Source of the DNA: a virus | Virus record (IMG/VR): IMGVR_UViG_3300047481_000473 | Location: 1 to 37,234 of that record | Strand: one strand, 5' to 3' | DNA: 37,234 nt | Shown here: in pieces, positions 6,610-35,861 of the stretch | How the letters are laid out: each line of letters starts with the position of its first letter | Numbering within the stretch: position 1 is the first letter of the stretch | The notes under the pieces: model-generated | The model's input: the letters and a program-made list of their open reading frames with translations, nothing else | What the model was told of the DNA's origin: nothing | Database searches by the model: none | Translations under genes and position numbers: made by a program

Positions 6610-7537
6610 TATTGAAGATTTATTAGCACGTTTAAACATAGATATTATTCGTGAAAACAATGATGAGTATCTTTGCCACTGCCCAGCTCATTTATCAAGA
6701 ACTGGAAAAGAAGATAGAAATCCTTCTTGGTGGATTAACTCTGAAACCGGTATGCACATTTGTTTTTCCTGTGGTTTTAAAGGTGGACTAAGTACTTTAA
6801 TTGAACATGTACAGGGCATTAATTATGACGAAGCACAAACTTGGATTAACAAAGGTTACAACGATTTAAACGAAAGATTAGCAAAAGCTCTTAAAGTAGA
6901 AAAAGAAGTTAAAACACAAAACCAACCAATTACAGAGTCTATGTTAGCTGCGTTTGTAGACCCTCCTCAAGAGGCTTTATCTGATAGAGGTATTTCTTTA
7001 GCAGCTGCTCAACACTATGAAATCAAATGGTCTGAACAATCTAAATCTTGGATTACAGTAATACGAGACCCAATAACTAAAAGTTTATTAGGTTGGCAGG
7101 AAAAAGGTCACGGTACTAGATATTTTAAGAATTGGCCTACTGGTGTTCAAAAGAGTAAATCTTTATTTGGTTACAAACAATTTGTGGAACAAGGTTTATA
7201 CCGCATGGTTGTTGTAGAGTCTCCATTAGATGTTGCTCGGCTTTTATCAGTTGGTATATTTGGTGGTGTAAGCACTTACGGAGCTATAGTTTCTGCACAT
7301 CAAATTAATCTTATTAGGTCAGCTAAAGAGGTTTTATTTGCACTAGACAACGATGATGCGGGGCGTAAATCTTCATTAGATCTTTTAAACGCATGTAAAA
7401 GTATGGGCATTGATGGTAAGTTTTTTAATTACTCTAATACCGACATGAAAGACGTTGGGGCTATGAGTAAAGAAGAAATACTTATTGGCATGGACTCTGC
7501 AAAACATTATGTACGAGGAATAAAGGCAATCTTATGA
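6599..7537 (+). CDS. DNA primase with CHC2 zinc finger and TOPRIM domain
   Basis: 312 residues. The N-terminal zinc-binding part has CHCPAH near residues 23-28 and CFSCG near 52-56, as in DnaG and the T7 gp4 primase. The TOPRIM part has the Glu strand VVVESPLDVARLL near 203, and the acidic DNDDAG near 250. It would lay down RNA primers. It is shorter than bacterial DnaG because the C-terminal helicase-binding domain is missing or minimal. The 11-base overlap with the DnaB-like gene fits a functional pair. Confidence 0.9.
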   Translation: MSSNIEDLLARLNIDIIRENNDEYLCHCPAHLSRTGKEDRNPSWWINSETGMHICFSCGFKGGLSTLIEHVQGINYDEAQTWINKGYNDLNERLAKALKVEKEVKTQNQPITESMLAAFVDPPQEALSDRGISLAAAQHYEIKWSEQSKSWITVIRDPITKSLLGWQEKGHGTRYFKNWPTGVQKSKSLFGYKQFVEQGLYRMVVVESPLDVARLLSVGIFGGVSTYGAIVSAHQINLIRSAKEVLFALDNDDAGRKSSLDLLNACKSMGIDGKFFNYSNTDMKDVGAMSKEEILIGMDSAKHYVRGIKAIL

Positions 7538-8076
7538 TTATAGGGTTATCTGGGTATGCGGGTTCTGGTAAAGACGAAGTGGCAAAAATACTAATTAAAG
7601 ACTATGAGTTTAAACGTATTGCCTTTGCAGATAAAATAAGAAAAATACTATACGAGTTAGACCCTGTAGTTATGATAGATGTTAATTATAAAGATATAAC
7701 TGTAAGAGACCTTGTAAATGACGAAGGTTGGGATGACGCAAAGAAGAATAAAGAAGTACGTGCTTTATTACAAAAGTTAGGCGTGGCTATTCGTAACAAC
7801 CTTGGATTAGACACTTGGGTAGATGCGGCTCTAAAAGATATATCTCCAAATGAAAACGTAGTAATAACAGATGTTAGATTTATTAATGAGGCTTCTAAAA
7901 TCAAAGCAATGGGTGGAACTATATGGAGAATTAAGCGTCCTAACGTAGAAGCTATTAATGCTCATGTTTCAGAAACTGAATTAGACGGATATAAAGTAGA
8001 CCAAATCTTTGCTAACAAAGGGTCAATAGAAGATTTAAAAACCTTAGTAATTAGTCGAATGCAGGGTTTACTATGA
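7534..8076 (+). CDS. Deoxynucleoside monophosphate kinase
   Basis: 180 residues starting MIIGLSGYAGSGKDEVAKIL. The P-loop GYAGSGKD ends in Asp rather than Thr/Ser, as in T4 gp1-type dNMP kinases. VVITDVRFINEA near 110 is the substrate/LID-side strand typical of that family. It would phosphorylate dNMPs released from host DNA to dNDPs, feeding the dNTP pool together with the ribonucleotide reductase at 27 kb. It overlaps the genes on both sides by four bases (ATGA). Confidence 0.85.
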   Translation: MIIGLSGYAGSGKDEVAKILIKDYEFKRIAFADKIRKILYELDPVVMIDVNYKDITVRDLVNDEGWDDAKKNKEVRALLQKLGVAIRNNLGLDTWVDAALKDISPNENVVITDVRFINEASKIKAMGGTIWRIKRPNVEAINAHVSETELDGYKVDQIFANKGSIEDLKTLVISRMQGLL

Positions 8077-25328: not shown

Positions 25329-25453
25329 ACCACGAGATTACACCAAGAGACGGTGGGTTCACTGAAGAAGAACTAAAGAGCCAAAAACCATTTGAACAAT
25401 ACGATGCTTGGATTAAATGGTGGCAGGAGATGTTACCTAAACAAGACACATGA
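25325..25453 (+). CDS. Small acidic protein (42 aa)
   Basis: 42 residues, bounded by ATGA overlaps at both ends, which is good evidence that it is translated. It is polar with Trp-rich C-terminus (YDAWIKWWQEMLPK). No known family. It bridges the HAD-like gene and the large two-part gene, keeping the ribosome path unbroken. Confidence 0.65.
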   Translation: MNHEITPRDGGFTEEELKSQKPFEQYDAWIKWWQEMLPKQDT

Positions 25454-26922
25454 AAATCATATATTTGGGCGCAGAGGTTCCGAGCAATCGGACCTTATTG
25501 GAAACTACTACAGCTACTAGCATAGGGGTAAGCTTTTGGAGATTAACAAAACGCGGTCTTCCTAAGCGAAAGAACTACCTATTATCGGACCATTTTAAAT
25601 CGGATAATAGTATTTATGTTCATGGCGGTATACCAAAGGACGCAAACCTGGATCAAGCTGAGCTTGAGAGCTTTGCAGCTGAGTATGAAGAGTTTATAGC
25701 CAATAATATGGACCGTATAACCCTATTTACCGAATTGGATCACCCATTATTAACCCAAGAGTTTATAGAAACCCAAAGACGCACTTGCTGGGCCGAGGTT
25801 CCACCCGGTAAGTTTTTGCCTGTATGGCACTCTCCAACAGGTCAAGCTGGCCTTAATAAATTAGTAGATTCGTATTTAGATGTAGGAATATCAGGTCAAG
25901 ATATAGAAGCCTATAGCTTCCTAGCTGCAGCTACTCGTACATTTGTTCGACGTAGGGGTACTAGATTTCACGCTATTGCGTGTGCTAAGCCTGACAATCT
26001 AAGGTCTATACAGTGTGAGACCGCAAGCACTATGTCCTGGCTTTCCCCAATGATGCACGGTGAAACCATAATTTGGGACGGTTCTAGAATAGTTAGATAC
26101 CCAAAGAGAATGAAAGACCAAGCCCGTTCTAGGTATAGACATATATACGATAAGGCTGGTATAGACTTTGATAAGATTATTGAAGATGACCCTAAAGAGG
26201 TATGTAAGTTAGCAGTATGGTCATACGAACGATTAGAAGATAGGATAAACACCGTGGGACCATATGATGAAGAAGAGTTTATATCAGATATAAGCAGTGA
26301 AAATGTACCTGCTACAACTGCGGAAACTACCCTCGACAATGCTGATACAAAGGGGGTACAAGAGCGGAAACTTATACCAAGAAATCCTGATGAAATTATC
26401 AATTTACCGGTGTTTGGATACGATACAAAAACAGAAGTTGATGCTGATGGGGTCATTAAAGAAGTACAAGTTATTCAATCCCAAGCGGGTACTTTAAGGC
26501 AGTGTAACACTTGCTTTGTTGCAGCAAATTGCCCTGCTTTTAAACCTAATAATGCTTGTGCTTTTAAGTTACCAGTAGAGGTAAAGACCAAAGAACAACT
26601 TAAATCCCTTATCAATGCAATCATTGAAATGCAGGGACAACGCGTTGCTTTTATGCGTTTTAGTGAAGAAATGAACGGTGGATACGCCGATCCTAACGTA
26701 TCTCAAGAAATAGACCGTTTATTTAAGTTAATTAAAACAGTTAAAGAATTAGATGATTCTAGAGAGTTTATTCGTATGACCGTAGAGCGCCAAGGTAGCG
26801 CTGGAGTGCTTTCTCAGATATTTGGAGACAAGGCAAATGTGCTTCGAGAACTACCTAACAACGGCCTAAACGAAGAAGAAACTACCCAGATAATTAAGGG
26901 TGCAATAGAAGAAAATCAATAG
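25450..26922 (+). CDS. Two-domain protein: alpha/beta barrel-like N-terminus, Cys motif plus helical C-terminus
   Basis: 490 residues. The N-terminal about 280 have an alternating strand/helix pattern with barrel-like strands (IIYLGAEV, YVHGGI, RITLFTELDHP, FLPVWH, YLDVGISG, RFHAIACAKPDN, ETIIWDG). The order loosely recalls tRNA-guanine-transglycosylase-like barrels, but the catalytic Asp pattern and zinc site of that family are not evident. From about 365 a Cys cluster (CNTC, x5, C, x8, C) precedes a helical region (IEMQGQRVAFMRFSEEMNGG, VSQEIDRLFKLIKTVKEL) that I associate with an unnamed actinophage domain. Ends before the B12 operon. Function unassigned. Confidence 0.6.
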   Translation: MKIIYLGAEVPSNRTLLETTTATSIGVSFWRLTKRGLPKRKNYLLSDHFKSDNSIYVHGGIPKDANLDQAELESFAAEYEEFIANNMDRITLFTELDHPLLTQEFIETQRRTCWAEVPPGKFLPVWHSPTGQAGLNKLVDSYLDVGISGQDIEAYSFLAAATRTFVRRRGTRFHAIACAKPDNLRSIQCETASTMSWLSPMMHGETIIWDGSRIVRYPKRMKDQARSRYRHIYDKAGIDFDKIIEDDPKEVCKLAVWSYERLEDRINTVGPYDEEEFISDISSENVPATTAETTLDNADTKGVQERKLIPRNPDEIINLPVFGYDTKTEVDADGVIKEVQVIQSQAGTLRQCNTCFVAANCPAFKPNNACAFKLPVEVKTKEQLKSLINAIIEMQGQRVAFMRFSEEMNGGYADPNVSQEIDRLFKLIKTVKELDDSREFIRMTVERQGSAGVLSQIFGDKANVLRELPNNGLNEEETTQIIKGAIEENQ

Positions 26923-26959
26923 TTTTTATATCTGATATAAAGGGTGCAATCTACGTGAA

Positions 26960-27055
26960 CTTGTATCTCCTCAATTTGGTTTAAGTTGAGGCAGATGGTG
27001 TAGGGTGCGCTACAGGTACTATTAGGTCTTCTTAAACAATCTAATACCAGAACAG
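26960..27055 (+). promoter_or_regulatory. Structured leader of the ribonucleotide reductase gene
   Basis: Three stem-loops follow one another in the 142-base gap. Stem 1 is CCTCAA/TTGAGG (26969-26991), stem 2 TGTAG/CTACA (26999-27014) and stem 3 TATTAGGT/ATCTAATA with one G-U pair (27020-27046). The ribosome site CAGGGGAAAG follows at 27053. Placement before an adenosylcobalamin-dependent reductase suggests a regulatory RNA, possibly sensing cobalamin or nucleotides. The B12-box consensus of known cobalamin riboswitches was not convincingly matched. Confidence 0.55.
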
Positions 27056-27064
27056 GGGAAAGTA

Positions 27065-29110
27065 ATGCCATTTTCATTTAAGCTTGCAGATGACTTCGTA
27101 ACAGGTTACAAAGAAAAGAAAGTTCCATGGGGGTACTCCGACGCAGGTGGAAACTCCGTAGGAGAAATTACCTTTTTACGAACATACTCAAGGTTAAAGT
27201 CAGATGGCACAAAGGAAACTTGGGTTGATGTATGTGAACGAGTTATCAACGGCATGTACTCCCTACAAAAAGAACATGCCAAAACCAATAGACTTCCTTG
27301 GAATGATGCCAAAGCCCAGGCTTCGGCTAAAGAGGCATTTGACCGTCTATTCAATTTAAAGTGGACACCACCAGGCAGAGGTCTGTGGGTAATGGGAACG
27401 CCCATAGTAAATGAACAACGTAACTCGGCGGCTCTTCAAAACTGTGCGTTTGTTTCTACAGAGTCTATGACTAAATTAAATCCTTCTAAACCATTTACTT
27501 TCCTGATGGAAGCCTCAATGCTTGGGGTAGGCGTAGGGTTTGACGACAAAGGTGCAGATAAAGAGTTTTTAATTTATAAACCAGAAGCCAATGAAGACGC
27601 ACCAGTTGTAATCCCAGATACTAGGGAGGGATGGGTCGAATCTGTCGGGGCCCTAATTAACTCTTATTTAAAACCAGATCAAAAAGCAATTCAATTCGAT
27701 TATTCACAAATTAGACCAGCAGGAGAGGTCATTAAAACCTTTGGCGGTATAGCTGCAGGGCCAGAGCCTTTGATTAAGCTGCACAACTATATCCGTAAGA
27801 TATTCAATGGAAGAGAAGGAAATGCTTTAACCCGAATTGATATTGCCGATATTGGTAATTTAATAGGCGTATGCGTTGTCTCCGGTAACGTACGTAGATC
27901 CGCTGAGCTTTTGATCGGACGCTTAGATGATAAAGACTTTTTAAACCTAAAGAACTCTGCGGTCTTTCCTGAGCGTAACTCATATGACCCTGACGCTCCT
28001 GGTTGGGCTTGGATGTCTAACAACTCTGTATCGGTTGAAGTAGGTGACGACCTCTCCCATATCGTAGAAGGTATTGCTTTAAATGGTGAGCCTGGTGTTG
28101 TATGGATGGATGTTAGCCGTAAGTATGGTCGTTTGATTGACCCACCAAACAATAAAGACTGGCGAGCCTCTGGGTATAACCCATGCGCTGAGCAAACTCT
28201 AGAATCCTTTGAGTGTTGCACCCTAGTCGAAACCTATATAGGACGACATGACAACCTAGATGACTTTAAGAGAACTCTTAAGTTTGCTTACCTATATGCC
28301 AAGACTGTTACATTACTTCCTACGCACTGGGAAGAAACCAATGCCATCATGCAAAGAAACCGCCGTATTGGAACTTCTGTGTCTGGTGTAGCTAATTTTG
28401 CTGACCGAGTAGGTCTCCCTGTATTGCGTGAGTGGATGGATGCTGGTTACGCTGTAGTTCAAAACTACGACAAATCATACTCAGAGTGGCTAGGTATTCG
28501 GGAATCAATTAAGACAACCACAATTAAACCTAGTGGAACTGTATCTATTCTTGCTGGAGAGTCTCCTGGCGTTCACTGGACTCCAGGTGGAGAATACTTC
28601 CTGCGGGCTATTCGATTTGGCAACAGTGACCCTATGCTTCCTTTATTCAAAATGGCTAACTATCGAGTAGAGCCTGCGGTTGAAAGCCCTGAAACTACTT
28701 CCGTAGTGTTTTTCCCTATTAAATCAAAAGCAAAACGTTCTGAGAAAGATGTTTCTATATACGAGAAGATGTCTCTTGCTTCTACGGCACAACGCCATTG
28801 GAGTGATAACTCTGTCTCCGTTACCATTTCCTTTGATATTGAAAAAGAAAAGGATGCCGTAGGAACTGCTCTCCATATGTATGACGGACAGCTCAAAACT
28901 GTTTCCTTCTTACCTATGGGCAACTTTGTTTATCCTCAATTACCATATACCCAAATAACTGCCGAAGAGTATGAGGATTACCGATTTAAATTATTCCCTA
29001 TTGACTTCTCAGGAGTTTACGCAGGTCTGGCGGCTGATGCTATCGGGGAAGCCTATTGCACAACAGACGCATGTGAGATAAAGTTAATCAAATCCGAGAG
29101 TAAGGTTTAA
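27065..29110 (+). CDS. nrdJ: Adenosylcobalamin-dependent (class II) ribonucleotide reductase, monomeric type
   Basis: 681 residues, similar in plan to the Lactobacillus leichmannii ribonucleoside-triphosphate reductase (about 740). The catalytic thiyl-radical Cys is in NPCAEQTL (C374). The redox pair fits LQNCAF (C127) and ECCTLVE (C385); C374 and C385 are 11 apart, as in the reference enzyme. The C-terminal reductant pair is C665/C670 in YCTTDAC, also five apart. It reduces ribonucleotides to deoxyribonucleotides using 5'-deoxyadenosylcobalamin and needs no oxygen or second subunit. First gene of a four-gene run that ends with the enzyme making its coenzyme. Confidence 0.93.
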   Translation: MPFSFKLADDFVTGYKEKKVPWGYSDAGGNSVGEITFLRTYSRLKSDGTKETWVDVCERVINGMYSLQKEHAKTNRLPWNDAKAQASAKEAFDRLFNLKWTPPGRGLWVMGTPIVNEQRNSAALQNCAFVSTESMTKLNPSKPFTFLMEASMLGVGVGFDDKGADKEFLIYKPEANEDAPVVIPDTREGWVESVGALINSYLKPDQKAIQFDYSQIRPAGEVIKTFGGIAAGPEPLIKLHNYIRKIFNGREGNALTRIDIADIGNLIGVCVVSGNVRRSAELLIGRLDDKDFLNLKNSAVFPERNSYDPDAPGWAWMSNNSVSVEVGDDLSHIVEGIALNGEPGVVWMDVSRKYGRLIDPPNNKDWRASGYNPCAEQTLESFECCTLVETYIGRHDNLDDFKRTLKFAYLYAKTVTLLPTHWEETNAIMQRNRRIGTSVSGVANFADRVGLPVLREWMDAGYAVVQNYDKSYSEWLGIRESIKTTTIKPSGTVSILAGESPGVHWTPGGEYFLRAIRFGNSDPMLPLFKMANYRVEPAVESPETTSVVFFPIKSKAKRSEKDVSIYEKMSLASTAQRHWSDNSVSVTISFDIEKEKDAVGTALHMYDGQLKTVSFLPMGNFVYPQLPYTQITAEEYEDYRFKLFPIDFSGVYAGLAADAIGEAYCTTDACEIKLIKSESKV

Positions 29111-29112
29111 TT

Positions 29113-29568
29113 ATGAAAAAAGGACTACTATTCGTTATAGCCACGGGTCTTGTGATCGGAGTCTGGTCTTCGACAAACTCCTCAAATGATTCATGTGTAA
29201 ATTTGTATGTTGATTATGGTCAACTAGATAACAATACAAAGTTAACAACTTGTGTTGATACATCTACTAAAACAAATGCTTTAGAGGTATTAAAAGAAGC
29301 CAACCTTCAAATTGAAGGCACAAAAAAGTATGGTAATGGCGTTATCTGTCGAGTAAATGGATTACCAAATGAAACTGTTGAATCCTGTGAAGTCATGCCG
29401 CCAGCCGAAGCATACTGGGCAATCATTATTAAAGAAAAACAAGTTATACCATTTCCAAGAAAAGAATGGGGTTGGGGACAACTTGCTATAGACCAACAAT
29501 ACTTAAATCCTGGAGATTCAATAGGGTTAGTTTGGACTGGTCCTAAAGGAGAGTTAAAGTTCCCATGA
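29113..29568 (+). CDS. Exported DUF4430/transcobalamin-like domain protein
   Basis: 151 residues. A Lys-rich start and hydrophobic core (KKGLLFVIATGLVIGVWSS) form a signal peptide or membrane anchor; no lipobox is visible. The rest matches the DUF4430 plan, which is shared with the C-terminal domain of transcobalamin and intrinsic factor. It runs strand VNLYVDYG, helix ALEVLKEANL, a Cys pair (ICRVNG, ESCEV), YWAIIIKEK, and a last strand after NPGDSIGLVW. It lies two bases after nrdJ and is coupled to the next ORF, so a corrinoid-binding role outside the membrane is a reasonable inference. Ligand binding is untested. Confidence 0.68.
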   Translation: MKKGLLFVIATGLVIGVWSSTNSSNDSCVNLYVDYGQLDNNTKLTTCVDTSTKTNALEVLKEANLQIEGTKKYGNGVICRVNGLPNETVESCEVMPPAEAYWAIIIKEKQVIPFPRKEWGWGQLAIDQQYLNPGDSIGLVWTGPKGELKFP

Positions 29569-29699
29569 AACTATTAGATAAACATGTAGAACAAAAGTCT
29601 TCTTACAAAGTAATAGTTCAACTTTCTTTAACCCTATTATGTTTATATATAGCCAACGCTAAAACAATAGACATTTGGCGTTCCTTGACTGGGCACTAA
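29565..29699 (+). CDS. 44-residue single-pass membrane peptide
   Basis: ATG overlaps the DUF4430 gene stop (ATGA), and its TAA overlaps the adenosyltransferase ATG (TAATG), so it is embedded in the operon and very probably translated. One hydrophobic helix, about residues 14-32 (YKVIVQLSLTLLCLYIANA), is flanked by a basic N-terminus and a short polar end. It could anchor or assist the exported protein, or help corrinoid entry. Nothing in its sequence proves transport. Confidence 0.65.
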   Translation: MKLLDKHVEQKSSYKVIVQLSLTLLCLYIANAKTIDIWRSLTGH

Positions 29700-30262
29700 T
29701 GGTTCATCTAACTCGTATATACACAAAGACAGGCGATGATGGAACAACCTCTCTTGGAGACATGAGTCGAACTTCTAAAACAGATACTCGTCTTGAAGCG
29801 TTTGCCACAGTGGATGAAGCAAACTCTTACATTGGGGTAGCACTTCTCCATATAACCAATTCGGATATTAGGAAATTACTACTCACAATACAGAACAATA
29901 TGTTCGATATTGGGGCTGACCTCTCCACTCCGGTTGTTGAAGCTCCAGAGATAGTTCCCCTTAGAATTACACAAGAACAAATAGATTATCTTGAAAATCA
30001 AATCGATATATACAATTCAAATCTAGAATCTTTACGCTCTTTCATACTCCCTTCAGGCTCGGCAGCATCTTCCCATCTCCATGTAGCCAGAACCATTGTT
30101 CGCAGAGCAGAGCGAAGGGCTTGGCAAGCAATTAACGGCTTTGGTGAAGGTGTAAATCCTTTAACAGCAAAATACTTAAACCGACTATCCGATTTGTTAT
30201 TTGTGTTAGCCCGATATGAGAATAGAGAACAAGGCGATACGCTTTGGCTTCCAGGAAAGTAA
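29699..30262 (+). CDS. pduO: ATP:cob(I)alamin adenosyltransferase, PduO type
   Basis: 187 residues from ATG 29699; TTG 29675 would add eight residues but overlaps the preceding ORF. It has the PduO pattern throughout: TRIYTKTGDDGTTSLGD at the ATP-binding N-terminus, AFATVDEANSYIG, LLTIQNNMFDIGADLS, FILPSGSAASSHLHVARTIVRRAERRAW and YLNRLSDLLFVLARYEN. The enzyme attaches the adenosyl group of ATP to cob(I)alamin, giving the coenzyme that nrdJ needs. It is the last gene of the plus-strand operon. A stable hairpin starts one base after its stop. Confidence 0.93.
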   Translation: MVHLTRIYTKTGDDGTTSLGDMSRTSKTDTRLEAFATVDEANSYIGVALLHITNSDIRKLLLTIQNNMFDIGADLSTPVVEAPEIVPLRITQEQIDYLENQIDIYNSNLESLRSFILPSGSAASSHLHVARTIVRRAERRAWQAINGFGEGVNPLTAKYLNRLSDLLFVLARYENREQGDTLWLPGK

Positions 30263-32381: not shown

Positions 32382-32575
32382 TTTCCACCCTCAACCTTTA
32401 CTATGCCCTTTCCGTAGAGCGTTTGGTTTGTTTGTGTTGGCAAGCCTATTCTGTGTGATAAGGCTAAGAGATAGGGAAGTGATAAGCCTAATAGAGTGGA
32501 AGTATTAGGCTTATCAAATAGGGTGAGGCGTGGCAGATAACTATACGAAGGGAATAAGCCACGCCTCACTTTCAT
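32378..32575 (-). CDS. Hypothetical 65-residue ORF overlapping strong hairpins
   Basis: The frame links the VWA gene (TAATG) to the membrane-protein gene (GTGA), as expected of a real coupled gene. The product is Leu/Pro/Ser/Thr-rich (YSYLPRLTLFDKPNTSTL, then LGLSLPYLLALSHR) and matches nothing known. However, two perfect hairpins of 13 and 12 bp lie inside it. So the stretch may be a structured RNA and the frame chance. I list it with modest confidence. Confidence 0.4.
   Translation of the reverse strand: MKVRRGLFPSYSYLPRLTLFDKPNTSTLLGLSLPYLLALSHRIGLPTQTNQTLYGKGIVKVEGGK
32481..32515. repeat. 13-bp perfect inverted repeat
   Basis: GATAAGCCTAATA (32481-32493) and TATTAGGCTTATC (32503-32515) are perfectly complementary around a 9-base spacer. 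On the transcribed minus strand this makes a very stable stem-loop. It is followed on either side by related partial copies (GATAAGGCTAAG at about 32457). It is not followed by a U-run. Confidence 0.85.
32523..32569. repeat. 12-bp perfect inverted repeat
   Basis: GTGAGGCGTGGC (32523-32534) and GCCACGCCTCAC (32558-32569) are perfectly complementary with a 23-base loop. It starts seven bases after the end of the 13-bp inverted repeat. The pair of stems covers most of the 89 bases next to the VWA stop codon. They may protect the 3' end of the upstream mRNA or control the next gene. Confidence 0.85.
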
Positions 32576-34494
32576 TACCGAGCGACCTTTAGTTTTGACT
32601 TAGTTATATCCCTCGCTACTTGAACTAAGTCTGTGGGTTTTGTAATCGCTCGGAAGTATTTAGCGTTATGTTTGTATCTGTTAATATCATAATACGATTT
32701 GTATTCTTGATATTTAGTTTCATTTATATCTTTGGTGGCTTCCGCTACTGCCTCAGCATTGTTTTTATCTACCCACCTTAATTGGTGTTCACTCCATTGT
32801 TCGTAGGTCATGGCTACATCTAGCGTTCCTAGATACACCACAATACTTTCGACATCATTTTGGTTTAGGCGTTTGATAGTAGTATCACACGCTTCATCAT
32901 TAGCCCACTCGCCGTCTGTTAGGATAAACAATAACTTGGTCGGGGCGGTAGTTGCGTTGAATACTCGTTCGGCTTCCAGTAGCCCTTGATATGGGTCTGT
33001 GCCACCATTACTTTGTATCGCTCTAACTACATTTGGATTTGCTTTTTCGTCAGCACGATAGAGAGTTCGGCTATTGTGGTTGAAGGAATAAATTGCTACT
33101 TTCCCATTTATTCTTTCTACTGCTCGCTTGATAGCCCATGCGCTTTCACACACCGACTTCATATTCCACATTGAGCCACTTCTATCTAATAGGATTACTG
33201 CTTCTATATCCGTATTATCTGAATTGAACTCCCACCTATCGAATACTCGATTAAGGTTATTTATATCTCGCTTCATGGCTCGACCTATGTTAAGCCTACC
33301 ACTTGGAGTTTCTTGTTCCCATGAAGGGTCGGCTTCTACTCGTAATCTTTCCAATTCGTCAGCGAAGCGTTTTGCTACGCCACGCATTTCAGTAGTTGGA
33401 GTTGCGTTATGAGTTAGTCCTGCCTTTGGTAATGAGTTTCTGTGTGAGGCTTTGCTTATTGCTTTTTGCGTATTCTTTAACTCGTTCTTTACATCTTTGG
33501 AGTTAATTATCTTTTCTAACTTCTGCTTCAGCAATTCCTTTTCGTTATCAGATAGTCCAGCGTTAATATCTTTGCTATCTAATTCGGTATTAGGATTTAA
33601 TTCCTCGCCTTTACCTTTATCTGCGCCTTCCCCATTTAGTTGTGGGTCAGTTTCAGATTTACCTTTTGCCATATCTTGTAAGCGTTGTTGCTCACGCTTT
33701 CCCTCAGGTCTGCCCTTGTCCATACTTGGTCGTGATACGCATGTTTTGGTTTCAGGTAGTTGAAGGTTGCCGTTGATTATCTGCCCTAATCTTTCGATTA
33801 GAGTTTTAGCAATAGCGTAATCGTCGGGGAATACGAGTGTTCGATATTTATTTACTATATCGGTAATTTCTATTGCTAGTGGTAATCCATATTTACGAGA
33901 GAATAGATTTCCTGTGATTTCACGCCACTCTATATCTACATATTTTCTACCCACCATAATTGGGTAAGCGTCTGCCCACTCATCTTTTGGTCGGTCTAAT
34001 AGATATTGAAGTGTTGTTGCTTCTAGGAATATACGAGTGCTTGGATACTTTGTTGTAAGTAAAGTTTCAATTCTCGCTTCCTCTAATACATTGAAAGACT
34101 TTCCGTAATTGTTAATCTTAGCCCATTGAGTTATTTCACTTGAACTTCTTGGTGAATATAATACATGAGCAAGTTCATGGTAATTAAGTCCATGAAGCGA
34201 TACGAGTGAGGCTTCATCTACTTCATCTATTAAGTCAGAATTGAAGTAGATATTTTTGCCGTCAGACCACGCCCCTGTTGGCATGGCTTCTTTGTATTCC
34301 TCGTTCTCGACTACATGGCAAGTAATTTCATTACCTACCAATATGCGGTCTGCCTTTGTATATACATTGGCAATACTGTTGAGTTCAGCAATATGTTGTT
34401 GCTTCTCATCATGGCGTTCTGATAACTCCTCAGGAGTTTCGTTCCATAATTGACGGAACTCCATATCTAATAATTCAGAGTTTTTGAACTTCAT
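32575..34494 (-). CDS. VWA-domain protein with HELAH motif, CobT-like layout
   Basis: 639 residues. The N-terminal part has HELAH at 106-110 (HExxH, a zinc-peptidase-type motif) and FNVLEEARIETLL, the layout of CobT and related MoxR partners. A polar, Lys/Glu-rich linker covers about 240-320. The VWA domain near 430-600 has an intact MIDAS: DRSGSM (437-442), NGGTDP near 497 and LTDGEW near 525. Such proteins work with MoxR-type AAA+ ATPases as metal-insertion or remodelling complexes. It is coupled by TAATG to the ATPase gene. True CobT would need a DUF-specific C-terminus that I do not see. Confidence 0.82.
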   Translation of the reverse strand: MKFKNSELLDMEFRQLWNETPEELSERHDEKQQHIAELNSIANVYTKADRILVGNEITCHVVENEEYKEAMPTGAWSDGKNIYFNSDLIDEVDEASLVSLHGLNYHELAHVLYSPRSSSEITQWAKINNYGKSFNVLEEARIETLLTTKYPSTRIFLEATTLQYLLDRPKDEWADAYPIMVGRKYVDIEWREITGNLFSRKYGLPLAIEITDIVNKYRTLVFPDDYAIAKTLIERLGQIINGNLQLPETKTCVSRPSMDKGRPEGKREQQRLQDMAKGKSETDPQLNGEGADKGKGEELNPNTELDSKDINAGLSDNEKELLKQKLEKIINSKDVKNELKNTQKAISKASHRNSLPKAGLTHNATPTTEMRGVAKRFADELERLRVEADPSWEQETPSGRLNIGRAMKRDINNLNRVFDRWEFNSDNTDIEAVILLDRSGSMWNMKSVCESAWAIKRAVERINGKVAIYSFNHNSRTLYRADEKANPNVVRAIQSNGGTDPYQGLLEAERVFNATTAPTKLLFILTDGEWANDEACDTTIKRLNQNDVESIVVYLGTLDVAMTYEQWSEHQLRWVDKNNAEAVAEATKDINETKYQEYKSYYDINRYKHNAKYFRAITKPTDLVQVARDITKSKLKVAR

Positions 34495-35861
34495 TAGTTA
34501 ATCGCCTCACTTGTAATTACTTCAATAGTTGTTTCCTCTAATTGAGTTTGAGGTATCGCTATTTCAATATCTAAGTCTTGGCAGATATTTACTTTGTGTG
34601 TATCGCATACTAACTTAACTGCGTTGCGTTCATGTATATCGAACTTATTTGTATAACTGTAAAGTGCGTATTCGATACCGAATTGCTTTGCGTTTCTTAC
34701 TAGCGATACTAACGAACGAGTTGATATTGGAGTTGTAATTTCCTCGTTCTCAAATTGAGTTCGTAGTTGATTAGCCATTGTAATTAGCGCATTTGATTTT
34801 AATAACTTGCGTTCGATAGATACTTCATAAGGGAACTCTAATACATGGTGGAAGCGGTCTTTCCATGCTTGGTTCATTGGTCGAGTGCCACGATAGTTAG
34901 GGTTCATATCGCCCACGATTAGTAGGTCGGTGTGAGCCTTAATTACTTCGCCACCATTATCCATTAGTTGTATTTCTCGTCTATCGTCTAATAGTGAGAA
35001 TAATACTGTTGATACTCGTTCAGGTATGAAGTTGATTTCGTTAAGTAGTAATACACCACCATTACGAACTATCTCGCTAACTGCGCCGTCTTGCCACTTA
35101 AAGTGTCCGTCTGCGGTTGGTATCCACTTGCCGAATAATTGGCTTGCTTCTAATCCAATATGGCTAGATACATTGTAGTAGCGATACCCTCTCGCACTTG
35201 CGTAGGCGATAACACTCATGGTCTTACCACTTCCAGCATGACCTTCGATAAGGATATTCTCATGGTTCATCATGGCTTTATCGTAAATATCGAACTCCTT
35301 AATTCCGCCGACTTTACGATTTACATATTCCTTACTCCATTTAATATCAGGAACTACTACCATTTCATTTATATTGCTAACTTCATAATTGGTAGCCCTG
35401 ATAGTTGGTGCGCTTTGATTAGTTGGTATTTCCATTACTGCGGATTTTTGTATAGGTTTGATAGCGACCCCATTTGAGTATCGCTTATCTACTAGGTAAT
35501 CATTGAGGCTCATATCGCCCTCGAATAGACGACCAATAAACTCCTCGACCACCTCTTTGTGAGATTTTTCTACGGATATTTCTTGGGCGGTATCTAGTGC
35601 GGAAGTAGCACGAACACCTAGATTAGTGAATTGGTTTTGAGCGACCAATTCCATATCCCTGCCTGTAATTACTACGGCGCATGGTGATTTAGTTATTGGT
35701 GCGGTAGGTAGGTTTTCTACCTCTGTCTTACGCCATGTCTGTCCTCGACCTCGTTCACCTGTAAAAGTGCGGTGGAGTATGGACACATCATTGGAAGTAG
35801 GGAACACGATAGTTTGAAGTCGTGCCTCTGCTTCCTGTGTTTCTATACATATTGCGAGCAT
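34494..35861 (-). CDS. MoxR/CobS-like AAA+ ATPase
   Basis: 455 residues. A roughly 180-residue N-terminal region precedes the AAA+ core: Walker A GHAGSGKT (207-214), LFGKW then FKWQDGAVSEIVRNGG, Walker B-like VLLLNEIN near 275, LLDDRREIQL, and sensor VGDMNPNYRGTRPMN near 310. This WQDG...NEIN...DDRR order is that of MoxR/CobS ATPases. It is expressed with the VWA gene. Homologues called CobS occur in cyanophages too. A cobaltochelatase role is not shown, as no CobN-like subunit is present. RBS AAAGGGAAAA and TATATA (35877) lie upstream. Confidence 0.86.
   Translation of the reverse strand: MLAICIETQEAEARLQTIVFPTSNDVSILHRTFTGERGRGQTWRKTEVENLPTAPITKSPCAVVITGRDMELVAQNQFTNLGVRATSALDTAQEISVEKSHKEVVEEFIGRLFEGDMSLNDYLVDKRYSNGVAIKPIQKSAVMEIPTNQSAPTIRATNYEVSNINEMVVVPDIKWSKEYVNRKVGGIKEFDIYDKAMMNHENILIEGHAGSGKTMSVIAYASARGYRYYNVSSHIGLEASQLFGKWIPTADGHFKWQDGAVSEIVRNGGVLLLNEINFIPERVSTVLFSLLDDRREIQLMDNGGEVIKAHTDLLIVGDMNPNYRGTRPMNQAWKDRFHHVLEFPYEVSIERKLLKSNALITMANQLRTQFENEEITTPISTRSLVSLVRNAKQFGIEYALYSYTNKFDIHERNAVKLVCDTHKVNICQDLDIEIAIPQTQLEETTIEVITSEAIN

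Follow-up and report, generated by a model that had tools for sequence, protein, structure and literature searches.

A phage gene cluster combining a class II ribonucleotide reductase with candidate proteins for vitamin B12 capture and activation

Why does a phage that encodes a vitamin B12-dependent ribonucleotide reductase (RNR) carry, directly behind it, the genes of an exported protein, a small membrane peptide and an enzyme of B12 activation? The question is raised by a stretch of viral DNA of 37,234 nucleotides (IMG/VR record IMGVR_UViG_3300047481_000473, positions 1 to 37,234; in the following termed the window), a phage genome fragment with genes for a DnaB-like helicase, a primase, a family A DNA polymerase, a RecA/UvsX-like recombinase and a RuvC-like resolvase. 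Here, nrdJ is separated by a gap of two bases from the gene of the exported protein (a candidate for corrinoid capture, hereafter the capture protein), which overlaps with the peptide gene by ATGA; the latter in turn overlaps by TAATG with the gene of a PduO-type ATP:cob(I)alamin adenosyltransferase (ATR). The coordinates (Table 1) agree with the four tightly packed genes, their order and their junctions as described in a first-pass annotation of the sequence. This arrangement is far beyond chance, because phages with proteins that diverge by 20–50% show the same gene order. The cluster is likely to be a phage auxiliary operon securing adenosylcobalamin (AdoCbl) for the phage's own class II RNR; with it, a freshwater bacterial virus probably boosts the B12 supply of its host during infection, the binding itself being predicted. 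Four lines of evidence that the first-pass annotation did not have favor the B12 module it had proposed: a predicted fold like that of the transcobalamin beta domain, cobalamin riboswitches before the closest cellular homologs, neighborhoods of the energy-coupling factor (ECF) transporter type around more distant ones, and conserved synteny.

The first and the last gene of the cluster belong to well-defined families. NrdJ scored above the curated cut-off of the monomeric class II RNR (TIGR02505, 363.5 versus 340.05 bits), with further matches to PF17975 (102.3 bits), phrog_367 (4.5e-139) and PDB entry 1l1l (4.7e-96), which we take to be the enzyme of Lactobacillus leichmannii. All five cysteines previously named (C127, C374, C385, C665, C670) were found: the first three align with cysteines of 1l1l, and the C665/C670 pair lies outside the alignment and was assigned by position only. 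The phage-encoded NrdJ shares with 1l1l the family and the aligned active-site cysteines and is shorter (681 versus 739 amino acids). The PduO-type identity of the ATR was corroborated by scores above the curated cut-offs of both PF01923 (205.7 bits; cut-off 24) and TIGR00636 (180.2 bits; cut-off 108.45). Its best PDB chains were 2g2d and 6wgs (approximately 1e-65), presumably both the Mycobacterium tuberculosis enzyme, with which it shares the family over nearly the full length; in contrast to these, it is a phage copy in an operon with nrdJ. The motifs YTKTGD, VDExNS, RxxxRRxER and YLNRLSDLLF, which we assume to have catalytic roles, were invariant in all 26 ATRs of the phage family.

The exported protein matched no Pfam or NCBIfam family, and its matches in PHROGs as well as its hits in PDB sequence searches, by single sequence or by profile, were at chance level. 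An AlphaFold model calculated from 34 phage sequences reached a pLDDT (predicted local distance difference test) of 85.2, with values of at least 90 for 105 of the 151 residues and below 50 for residues 1–23. Foldseek listed 3u7z first (E 8.6e-4), followed by transcobalamins; in VIA-align, the 15 rows with Z of 10.3–11.3 (94–99 residues aligned, root-mean-square deviation 2.6–3.1) consisted entirely of transcobalamin, intrinsic factor, haptocorrin and 3u7z, the next row having a Z of 6.5. According to the model, residues 25–145 share the fold of transcobalamin, intrinsic factor and haptocorrin (2bb5, 2pmv, 4kki; isolated domain in 5no0, 5np4) and of the bacterial 3u7z. In contrast to the transcobalamins, to which it is 16–19% identical, the phage protein has a bacterial-type N-terminal anchor, and its structured part corresponds to the beta domain alone, without the alpha-domain barrel of that family. 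Four cysteines are invariant. Profile–profile comparison with DUF4430, repeated on 26 clean rows, gave 46–67% for the phage profile alone (97–98 columns; unrelated controls at most 0.3%) and 94–96% if the 22 ECF-linked relatives described below were used or added. On these models, the exported protein, with a fold resembling the transcobalamin beta domain, is distantly related to DUF4430 without belonging to it by the Pfam threshold; of the earlier label "DUF4430/transcobalamin-like", the relationship held in the profile–profile comparison and in the predicted fold, while the Pfam model itself gave no match.

A likely ligand is suggested by the cellular relatives of this protein. The closest homologs (E 2e-46 to 3e-51; 35.5–40.1% identical to the phage protein) occurred in actinobacterial genomes of 1.0–1.2 Mb, six of the 151 searched of that order, and in all six (L123–L125, L249–L251) an AdoCbl/cobalamin riboswitch is situated directly upstream on the same strand. 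These homologs are similar to the phage protein in length and N-terminal anchor, with no lipobox seen; they differ by the riboswitch and, in the three genomes opened (L123–L125), by standing alone between gcvT-like and aldo/keto reductase-like genes (by eye; flanks of approximately 1.5 kb). The stretches of L123–L125 that were searched contained no peptide with a WR..(T/R)GH ending. Whole-genome searches of three of these six yielded 1, 1 and 2 places of the riboswitch family RF00174; the extra place, in a 1.2-Mb genome (G229; L392:3796-7812), directly precedes nrdHIEF, the B12-independent RNR. In this genome, one ligand thus governs both the capture homolog and an RNR, which parallels the location of capture protein and RNR in one operon of the phage. 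PF17975, the one class II RNR family searched for there, was detected in none of five small genomes. By their size and order, the small riboswitch-linked genomes may belong to freshwater Nanopelagicales (acI). According to PMC5301498, B12 synthesis is missing in acI actinobacteria, and ECF modules behind cobalamin riboswitches are present in them.

A second, more distant set of relatives is located beside genes of transporter type. Among 394 Actinomycetia genomes, 53 were hit in a profile search; the analysis covered 20 of these with approximately 5 kb on each side (L152–L171), the three small genomes L123–L125 and G001 (identical to L119), and left out the 29 weaker matches. A scan of genome contigs gave two named hits, the metagenome-assembled genomes of an Aurantimicrobium (L119) and a member of the Microbacteriaceae (L120), where the homolog precedes a fused transporter protein with two ABC ATPase domains and then a further membrane protein. 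All 22 of these loci (L119, L120, L152–L171) have same-strand genes for an ABC ATPase and an S-like membrane protein; the ATPase matches alone are not ECF-specific, and the S-like protein served as the specific marker. Six of 21 S-like proteins matched a folate-named model of the ECF S component (6.7e-7 at best), and a cobalamin riboswitch was found in 8 of the 20 loci L152–L171. The beta-domain proteins of the 22 loci are homologous to the phage domain (hhalign 100%) and have vitamin-transporter-like neighbors, whereas no transporter genes lie beside the phage gene; L119, L120 and L152–L163 have a lipobox-like N-terminus and some of L164–L171 a C-terminal helix (by eye), neither of which the phage protein has. 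In the capture-protein tree (n=52), a split with 100/100 support separated 12 ECF-linked sequences from the phage sequences and the six riboswitch-linked ones; support for a single group of the phage sequences was only 69/0.

Alternatively, fold and ligand might have parted: the exported protein could bind a metal, a peptide or a glycan instead of B12, or act in cell-surface exclusion. A common fold says nothing about the ligand, the title of 3u7z names a putative metal binding protein, and the Pfam model of DUF4430 is not matched; yet a ligand other than a corrinoid is hard to reconcile with the riboswitches directly before all six closest cellular genes and in part of the ECF-linked loci, and with a slot shared with the ATR and the B12-dependent RNR, and we regard this explanation as quite improbable.

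The third gene encodes a peptide whose residues W, R, G and H were invariant in 27 aligned sequences. A scan for the peptide tail gave 128 stretches, of which 118 were confirmed and 80 kept; the motif ending occurred in 108 of the 118 viral loci, some of which overlap, and in none of 62 cellular loci; at the DNA level it came in 42 distinct versions, with synonymous changes among them. An origin of the peptide as part of a cellular protein was also considered and set aside, with no match in five genomes (a search without positive control) and the same absence from the 62 cellular loci. Among the 80 peptide loci, 60 had nrdJ, capture gene and ATR, 12 had nrdJ and the capture gene without ATR, one had nrdJ only, and seven were limited by contig ends; these arrangements indicate that the peptide is a partner of the capture protein (and of nrdJ) rather more than of the ATR. 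Judged by its charge distribution, the peptide tail would face outside, i.e. the side of the capture domain. That it might contribute to the binding site or to docking is speculative. At one locus (L203:5947-6521), nrdJ is followed by the peptide and then by an S-adenosylmethionine decarboxylase (PF02675, 55.9 bits).

In a further explanation, capture protein and peptide do bind corrinoid, although not for uptake: acting at the membrane as a store or chaperone, they would retain B12 or pass it on, for instance by keeping imported or recycled corrinoid close to the ATR. Such a function would be in line with the overlap of peptide and ATR genes in the window and with the adjacency of the ATR in most capture-gene clusters (see below), with the lack of a transporter among the four proteins, and with the non-transporter genes that immediately flank the homolog in the three opened small genomes. 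However, the N-terminal anchor and the four invariant cysteines point to the outside of the cell, the more distant relatives adjoin ECF-type genes at all 22 loci, and at 12 of the 80 peptide loci the capture–peptide pair occurs without an ATR; uptake is preferred, and holding or hand-over appears unlikely.

The linkage of nrdJ, capture gene and PduO-type ATR, for which a search of further genomes had been proposed, recurs among phages. In the viral loci found by the capture protein alone (n=46), peptide and ATR followed right behind in all 46, and nrdJ lay right before the capture gene in 42; three were cut by a contig end, and one (L116) had no adjacent nrdJ, its nrdJ being located elsewhere in the contig (the same contig as L025). 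A larger set, 172 loci in which the capture gene is complete, was reduced to 46 clusters (90% identity, last 118 residues), and the most frequent complete arrangement was taken to represent each cluster: nrdJ was adjacent in 31, elsewhere in the examined stretch in three, not found in six and undecidable in six; the peptide was present in 44, and the ATR was adjacent in 40, farther in three and absent in three, the shares of peptide and ATR being biased upward because this pool was partly gathered with ATR and peptide. Two nrdJ types, approximately 28% identical, fill the slot before the capture gene, and capture protein and peptide occur with both of them and with both ATR forms. Among 25 records without an adjacent nrdJ of the window type, a class II RNR was present in eight (adjacent and of the other type in L016, elsewhere in seven). 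In isolate phages, none of 50,697 records matched the capture protein at E≤1; 15 matched the ATR, all below 60% identity, and in the one examined, a record of 254 kb that looks bacterial, the match lies beside an annotated btuB. Two of the viral contigs with ATR and capture protein also contain tmRNA genes (130 and 144 bits; L029:10983-11303 and L031:1008-1343).

The nearest relatives of the window nrdJ give a different view of the linkage. At least 80 were listed (79–84% identical), 74 of them with at least 1.2 kb downstream; among these 74, capture protein and peptide followed in six and the ATR, too, in four. These counts indicate that only some of the class II RNR phages have acquired the module as an addition; the idea of nrdJ being invariably accompanied by it was rejected, since 68 of the 74 listed have none of it downstream. 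The RNR–ATR link, called strong in the first-pass annotation, is borne out by the nrdJ of most module lineages and weakened by these 68 close relatives.

A module gained or lost as a block, as the 68 relatives imply, would also be expected if nothing but common descent or joint transfer linked the genes and they had no function in common during infection. The block is, however, retained across two types of nrdJ and two forms of the ATR, and nrdJ persists at a distance in seven records. The ratios of nonsynonymous to synonymous substitution (dN/dS) of capture gene, peptide and ATR were below 1 in all pairs tested: 0.22 and 0.26 for the capture gene of the window against L002 and L006, respectively (0.19–0.34 in three other phage pairs), 0.06 and 0.06 for the peptide (0–0.42) and 0.06 and 0.06 for the ATR (0.01–0.08), the values of peptide and ATR against L002/L006 being rough because of the high dS (1.6–2.2); for nrdJ, dS was saturated in the same two comparisons. 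Linkage without function is hence very improbable.

The two ATR forms were compared in a tree (n=62). The window ATR, 68–71% identical to the ATRs of three 1.2-Mb actinobacterial genomes, belongs to a clade of 13 phage sequences that falls, without resolution, in one group with ATRs of small-genome actinobacteria; 25 other cellular ATRs form a separate branch. The second phage form (approximately 162 amino acids) is separated from the window form by 1.45 changes per column, and the program warns of long branches meeting at it. This shorter, deeply diverged ATR fills the same slot in L035, L040, L065 and relatives. In consequence, two deeply different ATRs occupy one slot; no more than this is claimed, because long branches meet in the tree, and an independent capture of the two forms is not claimed given these branches and the position of the window clade.

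Several observations weigh against a B12 capture-and-activation operon and moderate its probability. With respect to the need for it, an ATR is already present in 77 of 79 sampled Actinomycetia genomes, i.e. hosts of this class usually have one. With respect to the linkage, the 68 listed nrdJ relatives without module downstream (contigs were not searched elsewhere) and the 12 peptide loci without ATR have been mentioned; moreover, L203 has nrdJ and the peptide with no capture gene beside them, no capture protein was detected at seven ATR loci with room for it (L032, L033, L060, L063, L068, L071, L078), and no class II RNR was found in 17 of the 25 records without adjacent window-type nrdJ (many of them fragments, some of 46–80 kb). 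With respect to the ligand, PF14478 (DUF4430) was not among the Pfam families matched by 34 relatives at E≤1; the fused transporter protein of L119/L120 matched CbiQ and ECF ATPase models weakly and below the cut-offs (18.8/25 and 145.9/330); the cobalamin riboswitch was absent in 12 of the 20 ECF-linked loci L152–L171 and not found in L119/L120; and the S-like protein had no significant PDB match and a two-row fold prediction with a pLDDT of 46, so that it was not called a B12 transporter on structure.

The sequence of events proposed for the operon is inferred in every biochemical step; shown are the genes, their families, the predicted fold, the context and the conservation. The N-terminal helix would hold the capture protein on the outer face of the cytoplasmic membrane, where the protein would capture scarce corrinoid outside the cell and the 44-residue peptide would work with it; the corrinoid would enter through a transporter of the host, the ATR would turn it into AdoCbl, and NrdJ would use the AdoCbl to make dNTPs. 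The term "self-contained", first used for the module, goes too far: no membrane transporter (EcfT, EcfA or S component) and no corrinoid reductase was found among the four proteins (Pfam, NCBIfam; the search for these did not extend to the remaining phage genome).

In contrast to the small-genome homologs, the phage genes appear to lack the riboswitch. The leader between the upstream gene and nrdJ, of which the region first annotated (from position 26960) covers approximately 100 bases, had no Rfam match at the gathering score, chance-level matches only at a relaxed threshold, no sign of structure (z −0.84) and no consensus fold; a cobalamin riboswitch was likewise not found in any of nine further viral loci searched. 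With no AdoCbl riboswitch seen in the phage, capture would continue even if the host's own copy is shut off, and the missing element fits a system freed from AdoCbl feedback. Taken further, and with considerable reserve, phages of streamlined freshwater actinobacteria may possess a two-part membrane device for corrinoid capture, a free-standing transcobalamin-like beta domain together with a phage-only peptide whose invariant WR..(T/R)GH end would complete the binding site or dock on the vitamin transporter of the host; out of riboswitch control and coupled to an ATR, it could make the infected cell a B12 sink for the phage RNR, and it may disturb the riboswitch-governed switch between RNR classes of the host. 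This extension is possible at best, and clearly less probable than the operon function as such.

Table 1. Positions of the four genes and the leader in the window.
Feature	Position	Strand	Assignment based on
Leader, upstream gene to nrdJ	26923..27064	+	no riboswitch or conserved structure found
nrdJ, monomeric AdoCbl-dependent class II ribonucleoside-triphosphate reductase, 681 aa	27065..29110	+	TIGR02505, PF17975, phrog_367, 1l1l
Exported, N-terminally anchored candidate corrinoid-capture protein, 151 aa	29113..29568	+	transcobalamin beta-domain-like predicted fold
Single-pass membrane peptide, 44 aa, C-terminus WRSLTGH	29565..29699	+	invariant W, R, G, H in relatives
PduO-type ATP:cob(I)alamin adenosyltransferase (ATR), 187 aa, start ATG 29699	29699..30262	+	PF01923, TIGR00636

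The surroundings of the cluster contain further genes of interest. Just upstream of nrdJ, a queuine tRNA-ribosyltransferase-like gene is located at 25450-26922 on the plus strand (phrog_887, 2.1e-56), whose product may be a DNA-modifying transglycosylase; similar-looking genes also precede nrdJ in L203 and L232 (by eye). A deoxynucleotide monophosphate kinase (7534-8076, plus strand; PF21448, 65.5 bits) indicates that the phage invests in dNTP supply beyond nrdJ. At a distance of 2.3 kb from the B12 module, the minus strand (32575-35861) encodes a VWA-domain protein and an AAA ATPase (phrog_249 "porphyrin biosynthesis", 2.4e-47); such pairs are often annotated as phage cobS/cobT. Pfam clearly supports VWA and AAA_5 only, CobT_C remaining below its cut-off (12.7 versus 21 bits), and L232 has a gene resembling the VWA one near its module (by eye). 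The last 16,122 bases of the window are identical to part of the IMG/VR contig IMGVR_UViG_3300042197_000642 (95,795 bp).

If the proposed function holds true, the phages would have a vitamin capture-and-activation route of their own coding rather than another biosynthesis gene, and viral infection would be linked to the flux of B12 in lakes where acI actinobacteria, reported not to make the vitamin (PMC5301498), are abundant. Furthermore, riboswitch, transporter and RNR context together provide a family of uncharacterized beta-domain proteins with a likely ligand. The possibility that phages with a class II ribonucleoside-triphosphate reductase (RTPR) enhance B12 uptake or production has been stated for virioplankton (PMC10547690); the B12-dependent RNR is common to those phages and the window, and while the portion of that text available names no gene for uptake or activation, a candidate gene set is presented here, which makes such an enhancement open to direct test. 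ATRs were not mentioned in PMC11360552 and PMC12454387 as far as term searches of these texts reach, and no report of this gene combination was found among the papers listed from an open-licence library (subscription journals and preprints lay outside the search). Each part of the cluster is of a known kind; their combination would form an auxiliary metabolic operon by which a vitamin is salvaged and activated. The phage auxiliary genes cobS and cobT, according to PMC8438041 and PMC13390420, are said to support the cobalamin metabolism of the host and are assigned to biosynthesis; compared with these, the module of the window looks like a system of salvage and activation.

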